Positions 23,574-32,031 of a stretch of 34,328 bases of DNA are shown one piece after another. The position numbers were made by a program, and so were the translations under genes. The stretch comes from an uncultured Acholeplasmataceae bacterium (GTDB taxonomy: Bacteria; Bacillota_I; Bacilli_A; Acholeplasmatales; Acholeplasmataceae). Numbering within the stretch: position 1 is the first letter of the stretch; every line of letters begins with the position of its first letter. The stretch is taken from the NCBI GenBank assembly GCA_927441705.1, contig CAKMKH010000008.1, forward strand, positions 1 to 34,328, written 5' to 3'. A model generated the notes under the pieces. It had not been told where the DNA came from. It was given only the letters and a program-made list of their open reading frames with translations, and searched no databases.

Positions 23574-23632
23574 TAGCATTTTATCGACTTATATGATATA
23601 GTTAGTAAGGTTAAAAAGAATTGAGGAAAAAG

Positions 23633-25330
23633 ATGAATATATTATTTAATGATTTACCAATTTTGGAAGAAACAAAACAAGCCATTCAGGCTTTAGGATT
23701 AGTTGAAACAACAGACATTCAACATCACACGATTTTTAAAATGTTAGAGAAAAAAGATTTAATTGGGCAAGCACAAACAGGAACAGGGAAAACATTCGCT
23801 TTTGCTATTCCGATGATTGAACATATAGATCCAAAAAACAAAAACATTCAAGGGCTAGTTATATGCCCTACTAGAGAATTAACTTTGCAAGTTTATAAGG
23901 AATTTATAAAATTAATCAAATTTAACAAGGATATAAGAATCACATCTATCTATGGTGGAGAATCTTATCAAAAACAATTTAAAGCACTTGCGAATCATCC
24001 ACATATTGTGGTTGCGACTCCAGGTAGAGCTATTGATCATTTAAATCGTAAAACAATCGATTTATCTCATTTAGATATGCTTATTATGGATGAAGCAGAT
24101 GAAATGCTTAAGATGGGGTTTCAAGAAGATTTAGAAACACTTTTAAAAGATACACCACAGGATAGACAAACTGCGTTATTTTCAGCAACTATTCCAGCGT
24201 TTATCAAAGAAGTAGCTAAAAAATATCAAAAAAATCCAGAAATCATAAAAATTAAAACAGAATCGTTAACAGTAGATAAAATTGAACAATTTTATTATAT
24301 GATTAAAAAATCTGATCGTGACCAACTATTGTTACGTGTATTAGATTACAATAATCCAAGTTCAGCAATTATTTTTGCAAACACAAAAAAAGATGTTGAT
24401 CATATTGCAGCATTCCTACAAAAGTATAATTTCGAAGCTGATGCACTTCATGGCGATTTAAAACAATCTCAAAGAGATTATGTCATGAATAGATTTAGAT
24501 CAAGACAATTAACTTTATTAGTAGCAACTGATGTTGCAGCTAGAGGATTAGATATTTCTCACGTAGATGTTGTATTTAATTATGAATTACCATTTGAAGA
24601 TGAAATCTATGTGCACCGTATTGGCCGTACTGGTCGTGCTGGTGAATCAGGAAAATCAATTTCATTTGTTTATCCTTCAATGAGAGGTAAACTCATGATG
24701 ATTGAAAGATTTATAAAACTAAAAATGGTAGAATTAGAAATTCCGTCTTTAGTTGAAATCAAACAAAAACAAGATGAAGTATTAATTGAAACTGTAAAAC
24801 ATTACACAGACACTAAATCTCAAGACTATTCGGAAATGATAAATAATTTAGTTGCAGAAGGCTATGATAAAGATGATATTATATCGTCTTTAGTAGAAAG
24901 ACTTTCTAAACAAACTAAAGAATATGAAGATATTTCTAAACCAAGAACAAAACAAGACTCATTCGAACAAAAAGGTTCTAGAAATAATAGCAATAGACGT
25001 GATAGAAATTCAGGTAGTAGAGATCAAAGGGATTCAAGTGGTAGAGATCAAAGAGATTCAAGTAGAGGTAGAAGCCAAAGAGGTTCTCAAGACAACACTT
25101 ACTATACCGCTGTTATGAATGTTGGTAAAAATGATGGACTTAGAGCTCCACATTTAATTGATTATTTAAAGAAAAATGCTGACATGTATCCAAAAAATAT
25201 TGGCGACATTGATATACAAGATAATCAGACCGAATTTCAAATTCACATAAAAGCTGTTAAAAGGCTTGACCAACTTACGGATAAAATATTTAAAGGCCGT
25301 AAATTAAAGTTCAAAATAACAAAAAAATAA
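23633..25330 (+). CDS. DEAD-box ATP-dependent RNA helicase (CshA/DeaD type)
   Basis: A 565-residue RNA helicase for RNA unwinding in ribosome assembly and mRNA decay. Visible motifs: Q motif (TTDIQHHTI), motif I AQTGTGKT at about 46-53, PTREL, TPGR, DEAD at 153-156, SAT, then in lobe two HGDLKQ, ATDVAARGLD and HRIGRTGRAG. After residue 440 comes an Arg/Asp/Ser-rich linker with a tandem GRDQRDSS repeat. The last about 75 residues form a DbpA-like RRM (AVMNVGKNDGL to KLKFKI). This architecture resembles cold-inducible DeaD/CshA proteins. The ATG at 23633 lies 6 nt after GAGG; an upstream TTG in frame is rejected. It is followed by the jet operon. Confidence 0.95.
   Translation: MNILFNDLPILEETKQAIQALGLVETTDIQHHTIFKMLEKKDLIGQAQTGTGKTFAFAIPMIEHIDPKNKNIQGLVICPTRELTLQVYKEFIKLIKFNKDIRITSIYGGESYQKQFKALANHPHIVVATPGRAIDHLNRKTIDLSHLDMLIMDEADEMLKMGFQEDLETLLKDTPQDRQTALFSATIPAFIKEVAKKYQKNPEIIKIKTESLTVDKIEQFYYMIKKSDRDQLLLRVLDYNNPSSAIIFANTKKDVDHIAAFLQKYNFEADALHGDLKQSQRDYVMNRFRSRQLTLLVATDVAARGLDISHVDVVFNYELPFEDEIYVHRIGRTGRAGESGKSISFVYPSMRGKLMMIERFIKLKMVELEIPSLVEIKQKQDEVLIETVKHYTDTKSQDYSEMINNLVAEGYDKDDIISSLVERLSKQTKEYEDISKPRTKQDSFEQKGSRNNSNRRDRNSGSRDQRDSSGRDQRDSSRGRSQRGSQDNTYYTAVMNVGKNDGLRAPHLIDYLKKNADMYPKNIGDIDIQDNQTEFQIHIKAVKRLDQLTDKIFKGRKLKFKITKK
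25019..25066 (+). repeat. Two tandem 24-bp repeats in the helicase linker
   Basis: Units 25019-25042 and 25043-25066 both begin AGAGATCAAAG and both encode RDQRDSS plus one residue, with three or four base differences. They lie in frame in the low-complexity linker, so copy-number change would only lengthen the linker. Confidence 0.7.
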
Positions 25331-25419: not shown

Positions 25420-26796
25420 ATGGCACATCTATTTGACCGCATGCATGAAAACTTTTTTAGTGTGCTCTCCTCTCCAAATAGAAATACATATATCGATTGT
25501 ATATTTATAATCTATAACGCAATAGATACGATTGAAGATGCTTTTCAGGGGGACCGTGAATTTATCATTTCAAAACTTGTTGATTATTTTGATGATCAAC
25601 AAATAGATGACTTTGAAGATATGGATGAAGATGAACAATCTAATACTTCTAGACAAAAAGCAGTTCACGTTATTAACATTTTAAAAAAGAACGGGTGGCT
25701 TGGTGAAGAAGAGTTAGGTGACTATAAGACATCGCTCAATCTTTTTGATTATTCAATTCAAATTATTGATATATTAAGTCGTATAAAAAACAACCAACAA
25801 AACGAATATACTGGAGAAATTTATACAGTGTATTCTCTTTTGTCTAGTTTCGCTATAGAAGAAGGTATAGGTGTATTAGAACAAGCATATTTAAAAACAA
25901 ATGATATTATTAGGAAATTAAAAGCTTTAAAAGCTAATATCTACCGTTATTATTATGATATTACTAAAAAACATTCTAAAAAAGATTTACCTCAACTTCT
26001 AGAAAAACTATTAGTTGAATATAAGCAAAATTTCTTTGACTCTGCTTATTATAATTTAAAAACAACTGATAGTTTATCAAGGTATAAACGTGGCATTTTA
26101 GAATCGATTTCTAAAATTCAAAATGATGCAGATCTTATGGATGAACTCGCTAAAACAGTTATTAAGTTAAAACGTATTGAAGACTATAATGAAGCTTTCA
26201 TGTATGTTGAAGATCGTATGAGATTTATCTCAGATAGTTTTACAGCTCTAGAACATCTCATTTTAGCAATCGACCGTAAAAATGAACAATATATTACTGC
26301 TGCCGCATCTAAGATTTTATTCTTCACAAATCAATCAGATGATATTGAAGGTATATTTAATCGCTTATTCAGAATTATATTAACACATAATGAATTAGAG
26401 CTTAACCAATTATTTAATATTTCACAAATCAGAAATCTAGATACAGATTCGCTATATAATCAAAGAAGAACACGAATCAAACCTGAACCAGAAGAACTTG
26501 ATTTTGATGATTCTCTCATATCTGACGAGTATAGAAAAGAGAAAATTAGAGCACTATTAAAAAACAATATTTATGGTAAAAAAGAAATTGACTTATATGT
26601 GAAATCACTTTTAGCGGATAAGAAACAAATAGAAGCAAAAGATATTCAATTAGATACACAAGAAGATTTTATTAAATTAATTTTGATTTTCTTATATTCG
26701 AAATCTGTTGGTATGCACTATGATATCAAACTATTAGATCACAAATGTAAAGTTAACTTTATTACTTTTCAAAACTTTGTGATAAAAGGAGTTTAA
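25420..26796 (+). CDS. jetA: JetA: kleisin-like (MukF/MksF-type) subunit of a Wadjet-type condensin
   Basis: A 458-residue protein I recognise as JetA (Wadjet anti-plasmid family, DUF5716-like). Its start, LFDRMHENFFSVLSSPNR, and the stretch HVINILKKNGWL match the winged-helix N terminus. A helical middle holds ILDILSRIKN-like and LKALKANIYRYYYDITKK segments; the C-terminal part, after an acidic EEDELDFDD-like linker, would contact JetC heads. In known systems JetA bridges the SMC heads and recruits JetB. It is preceded by a strong AAAGGAGG ribosome-binding site and followed 3 nt later by jetB. Assignment is from recall of the family plus the three-gene order. Confidence 0.82.
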   Translation: MAHLFDRMHENFFSVLSSPNRNTYIDCIFIIYNAIDTIEDAFQGDREFIISKLVDYFDDQQIDDFEDMDEDEQSNTSRQKAVHVINILKKNGWLGEEELGDYKTSLNLFDYSIQIIDILSRIKNNQQNEYTGEIYTVYSLLSSFAIEEGIGVLEQAYLKTNDIIRKLKALKANIYRYYYDITKKHSKKDLPQLLEKLLVEYKQNFFDSAYYNLKTTDSLSRYKRGILESISKIQNDADLMDELAKTVIKLKRIEDYNEAFMYVEDRMRFISDSFTALEHLILAIDRKNEQYITAAASKILFFTNQSDDIEGIFNRLFRIILTHNELELNQLFNISQIRNLDTDSLYNQRRTRIKPEPEELDFDDSLISDEYRKEKIRALLKNNIYGKKEIDLYVKSLLADKKQIEAKDIQLDTQEDFIKLILIFLYSKSVGMHYDIKLLDHKCKVNFITFQNFVIKGV

Positions 26797-26799
26797 AAG

Positions 26800-27438
26800 A
26801 TGAATAAAACAAATGCAATGAAACAATTTAATGAAGCTTATCAACAATTAAAAGAAGGCGAAAAAAATAACGTTTCACGAATAATTAATAAATTATTGCA
26901 AGTAAACTTCTTAACAAAAAGAAAGCCTGGAGATGCGACTGATTATCGTTTTATCTTAGCATTTAAAGAAGTTTTTATGGCATTTTTTACGCTTGCTGAT
27001 TTCACATTAAATATACACAGAGAAGATGAAGTTGTTTATATCTCAAACGACCAATTGTTTAATCATATGCGACTTAGAAAAACAGAAAGCATCATGATTT
27101 TAATTTTAAGAATTCTATATCAAAGAAAAAGTGATTATGTGACACTAGATGATGATGTGGAAATCTTTTTGCATGAGATACATTCAGAACTGACAAGAAT
27201 TGGTTATCTAGACCATAAAAGAATTACGAAAGATCGTTTAAAACCAGCACTTGTATTCTTAAGAAATTATAATATGATTGATTATATTGATCGCGGATTA
27301 CAAGATGACGCAAGAATTAAAATATATCCTACAATTTTATACGTAACAAACCTAGATTCAATTAAGGAAGTCGTAGACAGACTTGATGAATATACGGAAG
27401 GAGATACATCTGATCATGAAGAAATTGACGAAGATTAA
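26800..27438 (+). CDS. jetB: JetB: KITE-like (MukE/MksE-type) subunit, DUF4194
   Basis: A 212-residue protein of the DUF4194/JetB family. A helical N terminus (KEGEKNNVSRIINKLLQVNFLT) is followed by tandem winged-helix folds; MRLRKTESIMILILRILY and the end segment DARIKIYPTILYV are typical. It ends in an acidic tail (YTEGDTSDHEEIDED). In condensins of this type the KITE dimer binds the kleisin and helps hold DNA. The last 23 nt overlap the start of jetC, so translation is coupled and subunit ratios are probably linked. The acidic tail is encoded largely by this overlap region. Confidence 0.83.
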   Translation: MNKTNAMKQFNEAYQQLKEGEKNNVSRIINKLLQVNFLTKRKPGDATDYRFILAFKEVFMAFFTLADFTLNIHREDEVVYISNDQLFNHMRLRKTESIMILILRILYQRKSDYVTLDDDVEIFLHEIHSELTRIGYLDHKRITKDRLKPALVFLRNYNMIDYIDRGLQDDARIKIYPTILYVTNLDSIKEVVDRLDEYTEGDTSDHEEIDED

Positions 27439-30400
27439 ATTAATCAACTGGCATTTGTTTTCTAATCAAACGATAGACATTAAAGATAATGCCCTCATAT
27501 CAGGTGAAAATGGGTCTGGTAAATCAACTTTACTAGATGCTATGCAATATTTACTTGTTGGTGGTAGAAGTGGTGCTAAATTTAATATAGCAGCAACCGA
27601 TGACGCTAAACGTACACTAGATGGTTATATTAAAGGTCGTATTGGTGCTGAAAATAAAGAATACTTAAGAAATGGTGATGTAATAACCCATCTAGCATTA
27701 GAGTATTTTGATGAACAAAGCAAACAATTTTCAACCATGGGAGTTGTTTTGGAATTACCTAAATCAGGGAATTTAAAAGAAAGATTTTATTTACTAGATA
27801 ACATATCTATTCATGATAGCTTATTTTTAGATAAAAAATATCCGAGAGATTATAAATCGATGAAACAATATCTAAAAACATTAGATGTTGATTTTTCACC
27901 ATTTGAATCACAAAGAAAATATCGTGAAGCACTTGCTAGATTTTTTGGCATGGATGCGACTAAATACGCAAGAATTCTTCCAAAAGCATTAGCTTTTAGA
28001 TCAATTGATTTACAACAATTTGTTTTTGAGTTTTTGCTTGATGATGATCCTATTGATATCCAATCATTAAAAAACAATGTTTCACAATTAAAGAAAATCG
28101 AGCATCAAATTCAAAATGATCGTGAAAAATTAACAAAACTAGATCTAATCACTCAAAAGGGTGAAGAGATTGAACAGAATATGAAACAAAAAGACATCAA
28201 TGAAATTATTGATCAACTAAATTGGGTAGAAAAAAGAGAGCAATTCGTTAAAGAAAATGAAAACAAGCTTGTTAACATTAATAAACAATTAGATTTCTTG
28301 AGAGATGCTAAAGCACAAATTGATGACCAATTAGAAGAAAACGATTCTGCGATTTTAAGCCTAGAACGCGCAAGAAACGATAATGATATCTCAAGAACCC
28401 TACAATCATATCAAGAGGCATTAAATAAGAAAGCCGTTGAATATGAAAAACAAAAAGAAATAGTTCTACAAGTTAGACAAGACTTGCAAAAAGAATTTAA
28501 TGTGATGAAAGAACTGGCAGTTTTAATGCCTAATGAATCTATTAAACAGTTTGTTGCTTATTATCAACAATCTATGGATCAATTAGACACTGAAGAGATT
28601 AATCATCATTTATCTAATCTTGAACAAGAAGTTAAATCTTTAGGACAAGCATACACACTTGAAAAAGATCGTATAGAAAAAGATAAGCAAGAATTATCTA
28701 GTCAAATGAGTCAATCAAAAGCGAAACTAAATCAACTAAAAAGACATGTTAAGACATATCCATTTTACATTGAAAAACTCATTAATTCACTAAATGACGA
28801 GTTATCTAATTACTATCAAAAAGAAGTAAGAGTACAACCACTTTGTGAAATGATTGAAGTTGCAGATGAGAAGTGGCGAAATGCGCTTGAAGGATATTTA
28901 GGAGGTCAACGCTTTGATATTATTGTTGACCCAGCATACTTTAATGATGCATTAGAAATATATGATCGGATCAAATTTGAACAAAAAATATATGGCGTAG
29001 GTTTAGTTAATACTCAAAAAATAAACCACTATGATCAGATTAATGAAAATTCATTAGCTGAAAAAGTGTCAACTGAATACACTTATGCAAGATATTATGT
29101 CAATATGGTTTTAAATAGCATGACTTGTGTAGATAATGTTCAGGACTTAAAGAAATATCAAAGAGCAATTACGCCTACTTGTATGACATATAGTAATTTT
29201 ACGGCTAGACAAATCAATCCAAGAAATTATGAGATTCCATTCATAGGCCAAAGTGCAACAAAGATTCAAACAGAACAAGAAGAGAAAATTCTTGCAGGTT
29301 TAGAAGAAAAAATGAATATTTTATATAATTTATCTGATAAAAACAATCAAATTGTTAGATTGTTAACTCAATCTAAGAGTCCACAACTCTTACATCAAGG
29401 GCAGATAAGATATTTAGATCTCATTAAGTTAACTAGAAAAGAATATACACAAATAGAAGATCAAATTCAAGCACTTGGGAAGAGTAAAACTTTACAAAAT
29501 ATTGAAGAGCAAATTGATAAAGCTAAAAACACACGTAAGGAATTGCGTTTTGAATCTGATGAGTTGGTTGGTAAGATTGCTACTCAAAGAGAAGAAAGAC
29601 AACGCGTACTTGATCGTATCGATGATGTGCAAATGAAGTTAGAAGAATTTATGTTAGCCCAAAAAGAACTAGCTAAAAAACATCCAGAAAAATTAAGTAT
29701 TGCAAACACACAATATTATGCTTTAAAACAAAGACTTAAGCAAAATCATGATGAAATAACAGCTTATCTAGCTAATTCATCAGTTTCGCTAAACTCTCAA
29801 ATCATTAAAGATAGATCTGATTTATCGAATCTGATGAAATCATATAATGATTTATATCATTTTGGAGCAGCTCCATCGCTTGATGAACTTATATATTATG
29901 ATCAAGAAGCAAATAAAATTAGAAATAATGATTTAGTTAAATATGAACAAGAAGCAACTGATTTAAGAAGACATTCTGAAATTGGATTTAAAGAAGAGTT
30001 TGTAGGCAAACTAAGAGCAAGTATAGAAAATGCACAACAGCAAATTGCTGAACTTAACTATGCACTTCAAGACAAACGTTTTGGTAGTGACTCATACCAA
30101 TTAATTTATAAACCTAGTGATGATCCTGACTATAAGATGTATTATGATATCATCATGAGTAATGAAGCAATTAAAAAACATACTTTATTTACTGAAGGAT
30201 TAACAAAAAGACATGAAACAGTCTTAATGGAACTATTTGAAAAAATAGCTTCAAATAATCCAGAATATGATCAACTCACTTATAAGTATTTAGACTATAG
30301 AAATTATATGTCTTATGATATTGAAGTAACAAACGTCAATGGCAATAAGTCACTATTTTCTAAAGTTTCTAAAGAAAAGAGTGGTGGGGAAACTCAAGTT

Positions 30401-30691
30401 CCATTCTATATCGTTATTGCGGCTTCTTTCCAACAACTTCTAACTAAAAATAGAAGAATTGATTCTGGATGTATTGTTTTATTTGATGAAGCATTTAATA
30501 ATATGGATGAAAGTAGAATTGATGCGATGATGAAATTTTATAATTCATTAAGTATTCAACTATTAATTGCAGTACCACCGCAAAGAGTTTCAAACATCAT
30601 TAATTATGTGAACACAAGTTTAGTTATTGTTAAAGAAAATGACTATGCTATTGTAGAAACATTTAATGATGATCGTATGATTCATATCTAA
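27416..30691 (+). CDS. jetC: JetC: SMC-like ATPase (MukB/MksB/SbcC-type) of a Wadjet-type condensin
   Basis: A 1091-residue SMC-like ATPase. Walker A GENGSGKST is at residues 30-38; the signature motif KSGGE (Ser989-Glu992) and Walker B CIVLFDEAF (Asp1024, Glu1025) are at the C terminus, so a complete ATPase head can form. Between them lie long coiled coils (about 230-465 and 620-900) around a hinge-like region (about 470-600, with PLCEMIEVADEKWRNALEGYL). This resembles JetC more than housekeeping Smc. The ATG at 27416 is chosen because MKKLTKIKLINWHLF is the typical start; the AAGGAGAT ribosome-binding site is 12 nt away. Such complexes extrude DNA loops. No JetD partner follows; the next gene is pepC. 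Confidence 0.88.
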   Translation: MKKLTKIKLINWHLFSNQTIDIKDNALISGENGSGKSTLLDAMQYLLVGGRSGAKFNIAATDDAKRTLDGYIKGRIGAENKEYLRNGDVITHLALEYFDEQSKQFSTMGVVLELPKSGNLKERFYLLDNISIHDSLFLDKKYPRDYKSMKQYLKTLDVDFSPFESQRKYREALARFFGMDATKYARILPKALAFRSIDLQQFVFEFLLDDDPIDIQSLKNNVSQLKKIEHQIQNDREKLTKLDLITQKGEEIEQNMKQKDINEIIDQLNWVEKREQFVKENENKLVNINKQLDFLRDAKAQIDDQLEENDSAILSLERARNDNDISRTLQSYQEALNKKAVEYEKQKEIVLQVRQDLQKEFNVMKELAVLMPNESIKQFVAYYQQSMDQLDTEEINHHLSNLEQEVKSLGQAYTLEKDRIEKDKQELSSQMSQSKAKLNQLKRHVKTYPFYIEKLINSLNDELSNYYQKEVRVQPLCEMIEVADEKWRNALEGYLGGQRFDIIVDPAYFNDALEIYDRIKFEQKIYGVGLVNTQKINHYDQINENSLAEKVSTEYTYARYYVNMVLNSMTCVDNVQDLKKYQRAITPTCMTYSNFTARQINPRNYEIPFIGQSATKIQTEQEEKILAGLEEKMNILYNLSDKNNQIVRLLTQSKSPQLLHQGQIRYLDLIKLTRKEYTQIEDQIQALGKSKTLQNIEEQIDKAKNTRKELRFESDELVGKIATQREERQRVLDRIDDVQMKLEEFMLAQKELAKKHPEKLSIANTQYYALKQRLKQNHDEITAYLANSSVSLNSQIIKDRSDLSNLMKSYNDLYHFGAAPSLDELIYYDQEANKIRNNDLVKYEQEATDLRRHSEIGFKEEFVGKLRASIENAQQQIAELNYALQDKRFGSDSYQLIYKPSDDPDYKMYYDIIMSNEAIKKHTLFTEGLTKRHETVLMELFEKIASNNPEYDQLTYKYLDYRNYMSYDIEVTNVNGNKSLFSKVSKEKSGGETQVPFYIVIAASFQQLLTKNRRIDSGCIVLFDEAFNNMDESRIDAMMKFYNSLSIQLLIAVPPQRVSNIINYVNTSLVIVKENDYAIVETFNDDRMIHI

Positions 30692-30705: not shown

Positions 30706-32031
30706 ATGAAATCGATTACGAAAAAAGATATTGAGAAACTATCAAGTAATTTTGAAAAAAAACCTGTTCAAAAAGCATTATCAAGAGTTCTAGTTAAAAA
30801 CGAATTATCAACTCTTTTTGACAAGCAAGAACAAGCACTAATTAATCAGTTTAAGTTTTCAAACGAAATCAAAACATTACCAGTAACAAACCAGAAAAAA
30901 AGTGGTAGATGTTGGATTTTCGCGGGACTTAATGTTTTAAGAGAATTAATTGCAAAAAAGTATAATTTAAAAACATTCGAATTGTCACAAAACTATACAG
31001 CATTTTGGGATAAATTTGAGAAAATTAATTATTTCATTGAAATTATGGATGATTTCTTAGAAGTTGATCAAGATGATAGAACATTACAACATGTATTAAA
31101 AACTGGAATCCAAGATGGTGGTCAATGGGATATGTTTGTGTCACTTATTGAAAAATACGGTGTAGTTCCACAAGAAGCAATGATTGAAACTTCATCTTCT
31201 AGTGGTACACATTTTATGAACCAACTAATAAACGTGAAATTACGTCAATATGCTGCAAATGCTAGAAGTTTAAAAGCTGAAGGTAAAGAAAAAGATATAC
31301 CTCATCTAAAACAAAAAGCTTTAGATGAGTTTTATACATTGTTAGTGACTAATTTTGGAACTCCACCAAAAAGGTTTGATTTTGAATATGTAACAGATGA
31401 TACTTACAACGTGATAAAAGATTTAACACCTGAAGCATTTTATAAAGACCATGTTGGCGATATCTTAAAAGACTATGTATCTATCATTCATGCTCCAACT
31501 AAAGATAAACCATATATGAAAACTTATACCGTATCATATTTAGGAAATGTGATTGGTGGTAGAGATATCAAGTATTTAAATCTTGAAATGAAAGATTTAA
31601 AAGCATTAGTGTTAAAGCAAATGCTTAACCAAGAAGTGGTATGGTTTGGATCTGATGTTGCTAGATTTGGTGATCGCAAAATTGGTATATGGGATGATCA
31701 TCAATTTGATTATGAAGAAATGTTAGGCATGTCATTTGAAATGTCAAAAGAAGATCAATTAGATTATTCTCAAAGCGCTATGAATCATGCGATGGTATTA
31801 ACCGCAGTACATATCGATAATCAAGAACCAAAACGTTGGAAGATTCAAAATAGCTGGGGTGATGATAACGGCAAAAAAGGCTATTATCTAGCTTCTGATT
31901 CATGGTTTGACCAATATGTATATCAAGCAGTCATTCATGAAAAATACTTAAATGAAGAGCAATTAAAGGCTTGGAAACAAGAACCTAAGGTGTTAAAGCC
32001 TTGGGATCCTATGGGTTCACTTGCTAAATAA
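30706..32031 (+). CDS. pepC: Aminopeptidase C (bleomycin hydrolase family, C1B)
   Basis: A 441-residue cytoplasmic cysteine aminopeptidase. The papain-type catalytic residues are all present: Cys69 in KKSGRCWIFAGL, His361 in SAMNHAMVL, and Asn382 in KIQNSWGD. The oxyanion Gln lies in TNQKKSGR. The length and the C-terminal tail (EPKVLKPWDPMGSLAK) fit PepC, whose last residues plug the active site and define exopeptidase action. It probably supplies amino acids from peptides. It follows jetC by 14 nt with a good AAAGGAGATG site and may share that transcript, though no functional tie is evident. A strong terminator follows. Confidence 0.95.
   Translation: MKSITKKDIEKLSSNFEKKPVQKALSRVLVKNELSTLFDKQEQALINQFKFSNEIKTLPVTNQKKSGRCWIFAGLNVLRELIAKKYNLKTFELSQNYTAFWDKFEKINYFIEIMDDFLEVDQDDRTLQHVLKTGIQDGGQWDMFVSLIEKYGVVPQEAMIETSSSSGTHFMNQLINVKLRQYAANARSLKAEGKEKDIPHLKQKALDEFYTLLVTNFGTPPKRFDFEYVTDDTYNVIKDLTPEAFYKDHVGDILKDYVSIIHAPTKDKPYMKTYTVSYLGNVIGGRDIKYLNLEMKDLKALVLKQMLNQEVVWFGSDVARFGDRKIGIWDDHQFDYEEMLGMSFEMSKEDQLDYSQSAMNHAMVLTAVHIDNQEPKRWKIQNSWGDDNGKKGYYLASDSWFDQYVYQAVIHEKYLNEEQLKAWKQEPKVLKPWDPMGSLAK

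Follow-up and report, generated by a model that had tools for sequence, protein, structure and literature searches.

The window analysed here is a stretch of 34,328 nucleotides from an uncultured Acholeplasmataceae bacterium (contig CAKMKH010000008.1, assembly GCA_927441705.1), and its positions 25420–30691 were confirmed to hold an intact jetA-jetB-jetC set of the type I Wadjet family. All three genes lie on the forward strand and encode a kleisin subunit of 458 amino acids (aa) (jetA, 25420–26796; PF18982, PADLOC JetA1, AlphaFold2 and Foldseek), a KITE subunit (DUF4194) of 212 aa (jetB, 26800–27438; PF13835 and PADLOC JetB1) and an ATPase of 1091 aa similar to the structural maintenance of chromosomes (SMC) proteins (jetC, 27416–30691; PADLOC JetC1, match to solved sequences, structural model and Foldseek). 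In the profile search, JetA matched PF18982 (DUF5716) with 281.7 bits (1.1e-83) and JetB matched PF13835 (DUF4194) with 79.7 bits (2.7e-22), and the best PADLOC matches were JetA1 (340 bits), JetB1 (211 bits) and JetC1 (1077 bits). Coordinates and profiles agree with an earlier sequence-only reading of this DNA, which had described three coupled genes with a 3-nucleotide gap (jetA-jetB) and a 23-nucleotide overlap (jetB-jetC). Note that the 1091 aa of JetC are counted from a conserved MKKLTKIKLINWH start and that a longer TTG-started frame opens at 27383.

The same reading had called the ATPase motifs of JetC intact, and indeed their key residues are invariant or above 90% conserved in 24 relatives. 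Within the Walker A motif GENGSGKST (27503–27529, + strand; residues 30–38, G30-x-N-G-S-G35-K36-S37), G30, N32, G35, K36 and S37 are invariant; within the ABC signature SGGET (30380–30394, + strand; residues 989–993), this holds for S989, G990 and E992, with G991 and T993 above 90%; and within the Walker B motif IVLFDE (30473–30490, + strand; residues 1020–1025; PF13558 SbcC_Walker_B, 5.1e-25), for D1024 and E1025. The structural model of JetC (predicted local distance difference test, pLDDT, of 84) has the order head, coiled coil, hinge, coiled coil, head, in which the hinge region (28823–29248, + strand; about residues 470–611) is predicted as a globular segment between the two coiled coils, at the position where PF06470 matches the JetC of relatives. 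The top Foldseek matches of this model were Wadjet-II JetC, MukB and Wadjet-I JetC, and the closest solved sequences were those of E. coli JetC (8as8/9qxt) and PA14 JetC (8dk2). JetC scores below the cut-offs of the MukB family ATPases (PF04310, 16.8 bits against 23; NCBIfam MukB, 38.9 against 699) and of Smc (TIGR02168, 35 bits against 567). For JetA, the AlphaFold2 model (pLDDT 75) predicts an N-terminal winged helix (about residues 21–108) followed by a helical neck, a disordered linker (about 305–368) and a C-terminal winged helix (about 369–457). A search of its profile against PDB sequences gave no credible match, whereas the fold comparison did, with Wadjet-II JetA, MukF and Wadjet-I JetA as best Foldseek matches. 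JetA, JetB and JetC can thus all be assigned to Wadjet, whereas JetD was found neither in the operon nor in the genome.

As the sequence-only reading had also noted, the locus is flanked by an RNA helicase and by pepC, with no jetD between them. The upstream neighbour, which stands outside the complex, is a CshA-like DEAD-box RNA helicase (23621–25330, + strand; NF053631 CshA, 504 bits, under the cut-off of 646), and the downstream one, the peptidase C1-like pepC (30706–32031, + strand; PF03051, 8.9e-158), starts 14 nucleotides past jetC, in the slot that jetD holds in Wadjet loci. That reading had left room for a JetD encoded elsewhere and proposed a genome search for it. The search with the JetD_C (PF09983) and DUF3322 (PF11795) profiles gave no match in the source genome (about 1.76 Mb, 105 contigs, 97% complete), the control Corynebacterium glutamicum being positive; absence calls in this study, for JetD and the other proteins, rest on such profile searches. 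On a larger scale, 160 genomes of the order, whose named relatives belong to the Acholeplasmataceae, were searched; 127 carry JetA and 8 carry JetD_C, 7 of the latter together with JetA, so that 120 of the 127 JetA-bearing genomes, closed ones included, have no JetD match, and a JetD encoded elsewhere was rejected. Five genomes (G023, G096, G109, G111 and G121) hold a JetD-less jetABC plus a separate jetABCD elsewhere, in which jetD immediately follows jetC; G151 carries a JetD-bearing locus only, G133 a JetD-less locus and, on a different contig, a partial jetC with jetD, and G152 a jetD after a jetC that is cut by the contig end. A jetD adjacent to jetC in a related strain, which would have spoken against the sequence-only reading, occurs only at the second jetABCD locus of the same-genus G023 and not at the orthologous locus. 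In addition, the cshA-jetABC-pepC order is repeated in many independent Acholeplasmataceae assemblies, with both neighbours the same in most loci, and misassembly is therefore unlikely; it was rejected, the jetC-pepC junction being continuous and the same in these assemblies. JetD absence is a lineage trait of the order and beyond, neither a local loss nor an assembly gap, and the JetABCD loci of the order are separate, patchy second copies.

The check for smc-scpAB in the same genome, likewise proposed by the sequence-only reading, was negative with the ScpA, ScpB and SMC_N profiles. Across the order, all 160 genomes lacked an ScpA match (the profile being positive in 9 of 14 control genomes) and ScpB passed the cut-off in none, with one weak fragment in G017. 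The SMC-hinge profile matched 20 genomes of the order, and the matches that were compared with JetA coordinates lie about 3.3 kb downstream of JetA and thus fall within JetC. A selection of 55 genomes was scanned with the SMC_N profile, namely the source genome, five relatives of family f1 (G015 and G022–G025), six genomes of f4, six of the phytoplasma-like kind and 37 genomes from the rest of the class without ScpA and JetA. An Smc-like score (150 bits) was reached in G164 only, the other strong matches lay in frames as long as those of RecF and RecN, and the six f1 genomes so scanned, the source genome included, gave no Smc. From these results together, JetABC is the sole condensin-type complex detected in the order. 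The nuclease-free condensin suggested by the sequence-only reading fits this absence of ScpA, ScpB and Smc; however, the genome reduction it had invoked is not the cause, as the source genome has about 1.76 Mb and relatives of 2.2 Mb share the same JetD-less arrangement.

The operon is also under strong purifying selection, judging from the ratio of nonsynonymous to synonymous substitution (omega), which in comparison with two relatives is 0.05–0.09 for jetA, jetB and jetC against 0.07–0.30 for the neighbours, with jetABC below most of them; these values are rough, synonymous divergence being close to saturation. JetC distances correlate with CshA distances (Mantel r 0.90) and with PepC distances (0.75), and the operon is inherited vertically along family lines. 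In other families a different set of housekeeping genes flanks jetABC, and the neighbourhoods have no nuclease in common across families, neighbours being judged by eye and by mutual similarity. Plasmid and phage records gave distant JetC relatives only, with less than 60% identity.

Because Smc-ScpAB is absent and JetABC is conserved and akin to MksBEF and MukBEF, we infer a chromosomal condensin function: the nuclease-free Wadjet motor has probably replaced Smc-ScpAB as the chromosomal loop extruder, and on present sequence evidence we consider this condensin role of JetABC fairly likely. In such a complex, two JetC ATPases would be joined through the hinge, the JetA kleisin would bridge the pair and the JetB KITE protein would be bound to it. 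JetABC would most likely extrude DNA loops on the chromosome at the expense of ATP, as MukBEF and MksBEF do and without cutting. In this way it would compact the chromosome and assist the separation of sister chromosomes, in place of the lost Smc-ScpAB. With JetD gone, a small circle could be fully extruded and would then not be cleaved.

Compared to Wadjet type I (JetABCD), the motor subunits, the jetA-jetB-jetC order, the overlapping genes and the ATPase motifs are the same, whereas here the genome has no JetD and the complex is near-universal, vertical and placed among housekeeping genes. MukBEF and MksBEF have been proposed to descend from a defence complex after loss of its nuclease, a course of events with few examples. 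The change proposed here is of the same kind as in MksBEF of Pseudomonas aeruginosa, but the latter retains an SMC condensin beside MksBEF (PMC7485682) whereas no Smc-ScpAB was found here, and both the lineages and the JetD losses are separate. MukBEF of enterobacteria, a divergent SMC complex, has taken the place of Smc-ScpAB throughout a clade (PMC10586767); the models of JetA and JetC are similar to MukF and MukB, but JetC is shorter (1091 aa) than MukB (about 1482 aa), and the MukB profile stays under its cut-off. With Smc-ScpAB itself, the presumed function is the same but the kleisin, KITE and SMC families differ. Altogether, our results suggest that chromosome housekeeping in the order has passed to a disarmed defence motor, and probably more than once. 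Since JetABC without JetD and Smc-ScpAB is carried order-wide and by outside families, this route from defence motor to condensin becomes testable in culturable wall-less bacteria, for which natural comparisons are provided by one genome with one disarmed and one armed copy (G023) and by related families apparently without Smc and JetABC. Moreover, programs that find defence systems may take a condensin with a housekeeping role for a component of Wadjet. No earlier report of this arrangement was found in the open-access literature, subscription papers and preprints being mostly outside the scope of the search, and its novelty is provisional.

A wider view is given by 223 genomes of the class outside the order, among which JetA was found in 42 and ScpA in 121 (both in 10, JetA only in 32, ScpA only in 111 and neither in 70). 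Where both proteins occur, 6 of the 10 genomes have JetD beside the JetA locus, against 0 of the 32 with JetA only (Fisher p 4e-5, such p-values being descriptive as the genomes are related). The zero count concerns complete JetA loci, the exception being G223, in which a broken jetA stands next to jetD (L105) and an intact JetD-less jetABC lies elsewhere in the same genome; from its sequence, the broken pair looks like a decaying Wadjet. The JetC profile, searched in 80 chosen genomes, gave a near full-length JetC in 11 of 20 phytoplasma-like genomes, presumably phytoplasmas to judge by their size, family and genes, and none in the other 9, and JetA and JetC calls were concordant in these genomes except in G058 (JetC without a JetA match). 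In the phytoplasma-like genomes of 0.5–0.8 Mb, jetBC are kept together and jetA is unlinked (jetA at L148, L182 and L183; jetC, mostly with jetB, at L195–L205). The partitioning repertoire of phytoplasmas has been described as sparse (PMC3322544).

Several other explanations have to be weighed against a condensin role. JetABC could still act as a plasmid-restriction sensor that recruits in trans a nuclease outside the JetD family, and this idea draws on the fact that every sensor part is intact and the JetA N-terminus unchanged, and that full extrusion is the presumed means by which Wadjet motors recognise small circles (PMC10586767). However, no neighbour gene or nuclease is common across families, the context is housekeeping and the constraint strong, and defence systems are usually patchy whereas JetABC is near-universal and vertical in the order. 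In addition, the phytoplasma-type G048, with intact jetA and jetBC, bears a second contig of 4224 bases (L225) with a DnaG-like primase gene; this 4.2 kb contig is probably a plasmid and would be a weak sign that JetABC does not remove small plasmids, so that a sensor acting in trans appears rather improbable. It is also unlikely that JetABC serves another DNA role, such as repair, replication-fork or terminus processing or foreign-DNA silencing, in cells that manage without a condensin: SMC condensins are apparently missing altogether from several sister families and from some of the phytoplasma-like genomes, but the studied JetD-less kin, MksBEF of Pseudomonas and MukBEF, serve chromosome organisation and segregation (PMC10586767, PMC7485682).

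The absence of jetD and Smc-ScpAB might instead be an artefact of incomplete metagenome assembly or insensitive profiles, a concern raised by the 105 contigs and 97% completeness of the source genome. We regard this as very unlikely, as the closed or near-closed same-genus G022, G024 and G025 agree (G023 having JetD at its second locus only), as the profiles are positive in control genomes and in the ScpA-bearing families of the class, and as the jetC-pepC junction recurs identically in independent assemblies. Least credible of all is a decaying Wadjet that has lost jetD and whose remainder is on its way out, to which the absence of JetABC from some phytoplasma-like genomes and some other families could point; such decay is contradicted by the purifying selection (omega 0.05–0.09) and by frames that are of full length in almost every JetA-bearing genome across the order, and was rejected.

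Other observations weigh against the condensin role itself. In families f4, f9, f16 and f19, ScpA, JetA and JetC are missing, as is Smc in the genomes scanned for it, except for two f4 members that bear JetABCD, and their sequences suggest that these bacteria possibly have no SMC condensin at all; examples are the near-complete genomes G148, G163, G170 and G185, which also lack an Smc-like SMC_N match. Since these families and 9 of the 20 phytoplasma-like genomes show neither JetABC nor Smc-ScpAB, members of the class can apparently live without both, and a missing Smc-ScpAB alone is therefore no proof of takeover. In family f12, JetD-less JetABC is paired with ScpA in the same genome (loci L169, L170, L173, L175, L176 and L177), possibly an intermediate state by analogy with Pseudomonas and its MksBEF. 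For the order beyond the genomes scanned with SMC_N, the absence of Smc is read from ScpA, ScpB and the hinge only. Finally, neither the JetA motif nor the JetC columns showed a statistically clear trace of lost JetD binding in their residues. The N-terminal [IL]FD motif of JetA is kept alike in JetD-bearing and JetD-less copies and was rejected as a mark of such loss, and 7 JetC columns were constant in the presence of JetD but changed in its absence, against 2.9 expected, a value reached in 5 of 60 random draws. As a weak lead, JetC residues 496, 694, 995, 1032 and 1063 are constant in JetD-bearing and changed in most JetD-less lineages, residue 995 sitting just past the ABC signature.

Trees of JetA, JetB and JetC combined, built with FastTree and treekit, place the JetD-less copies in separate well-supported groups (f1; f2/f3/f5/f23/f24; f11/f21; f7; f12; and a second f11 group), with the f7 copies sister to JetD-bearing f12 copies and the JetD-less f12 group occurring with ScpA. 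At least 5 changes of JetD state are needed on the tree, and the approximately unbiased (AU) test rejected a single clade of all JetD-less copies (p 1.8e-50) as well as one uniting f1 with f2/f3/f5/f23/f24 (p 1.4e-16), though trees and tests carry long branches and a simple model. JetD-less JetABC thus appears from its phylogeny to have arisen in several lineages, and since the place of jetD after jetC is constant, JetD would have been lost rather than never present. It is conceivable, with a little less than an even chance, that Smc-ScpAB was lost early in Mollicutes-like Bacilli and that JetD-less JetABC was adopted as main condensin repeatedly and independently (in f1; f2/f3/f5/f23/f24; f11/f21; f7; and the second f11 group), some sister families staying condensin-free; if so, defence SMC complexes would be a recurrent source of housekeeping condensins. 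Whereas JetD-less copies cluster by family, those with JetD are dispersed over the tree (f1 with f4; f2 at two positions), a pattern that points to their transfer. Indeed, the jetABCD loci L132 and L139, of families f1 and f4, are closely related, a kinship that suggests horizontal transfer of the armed system.
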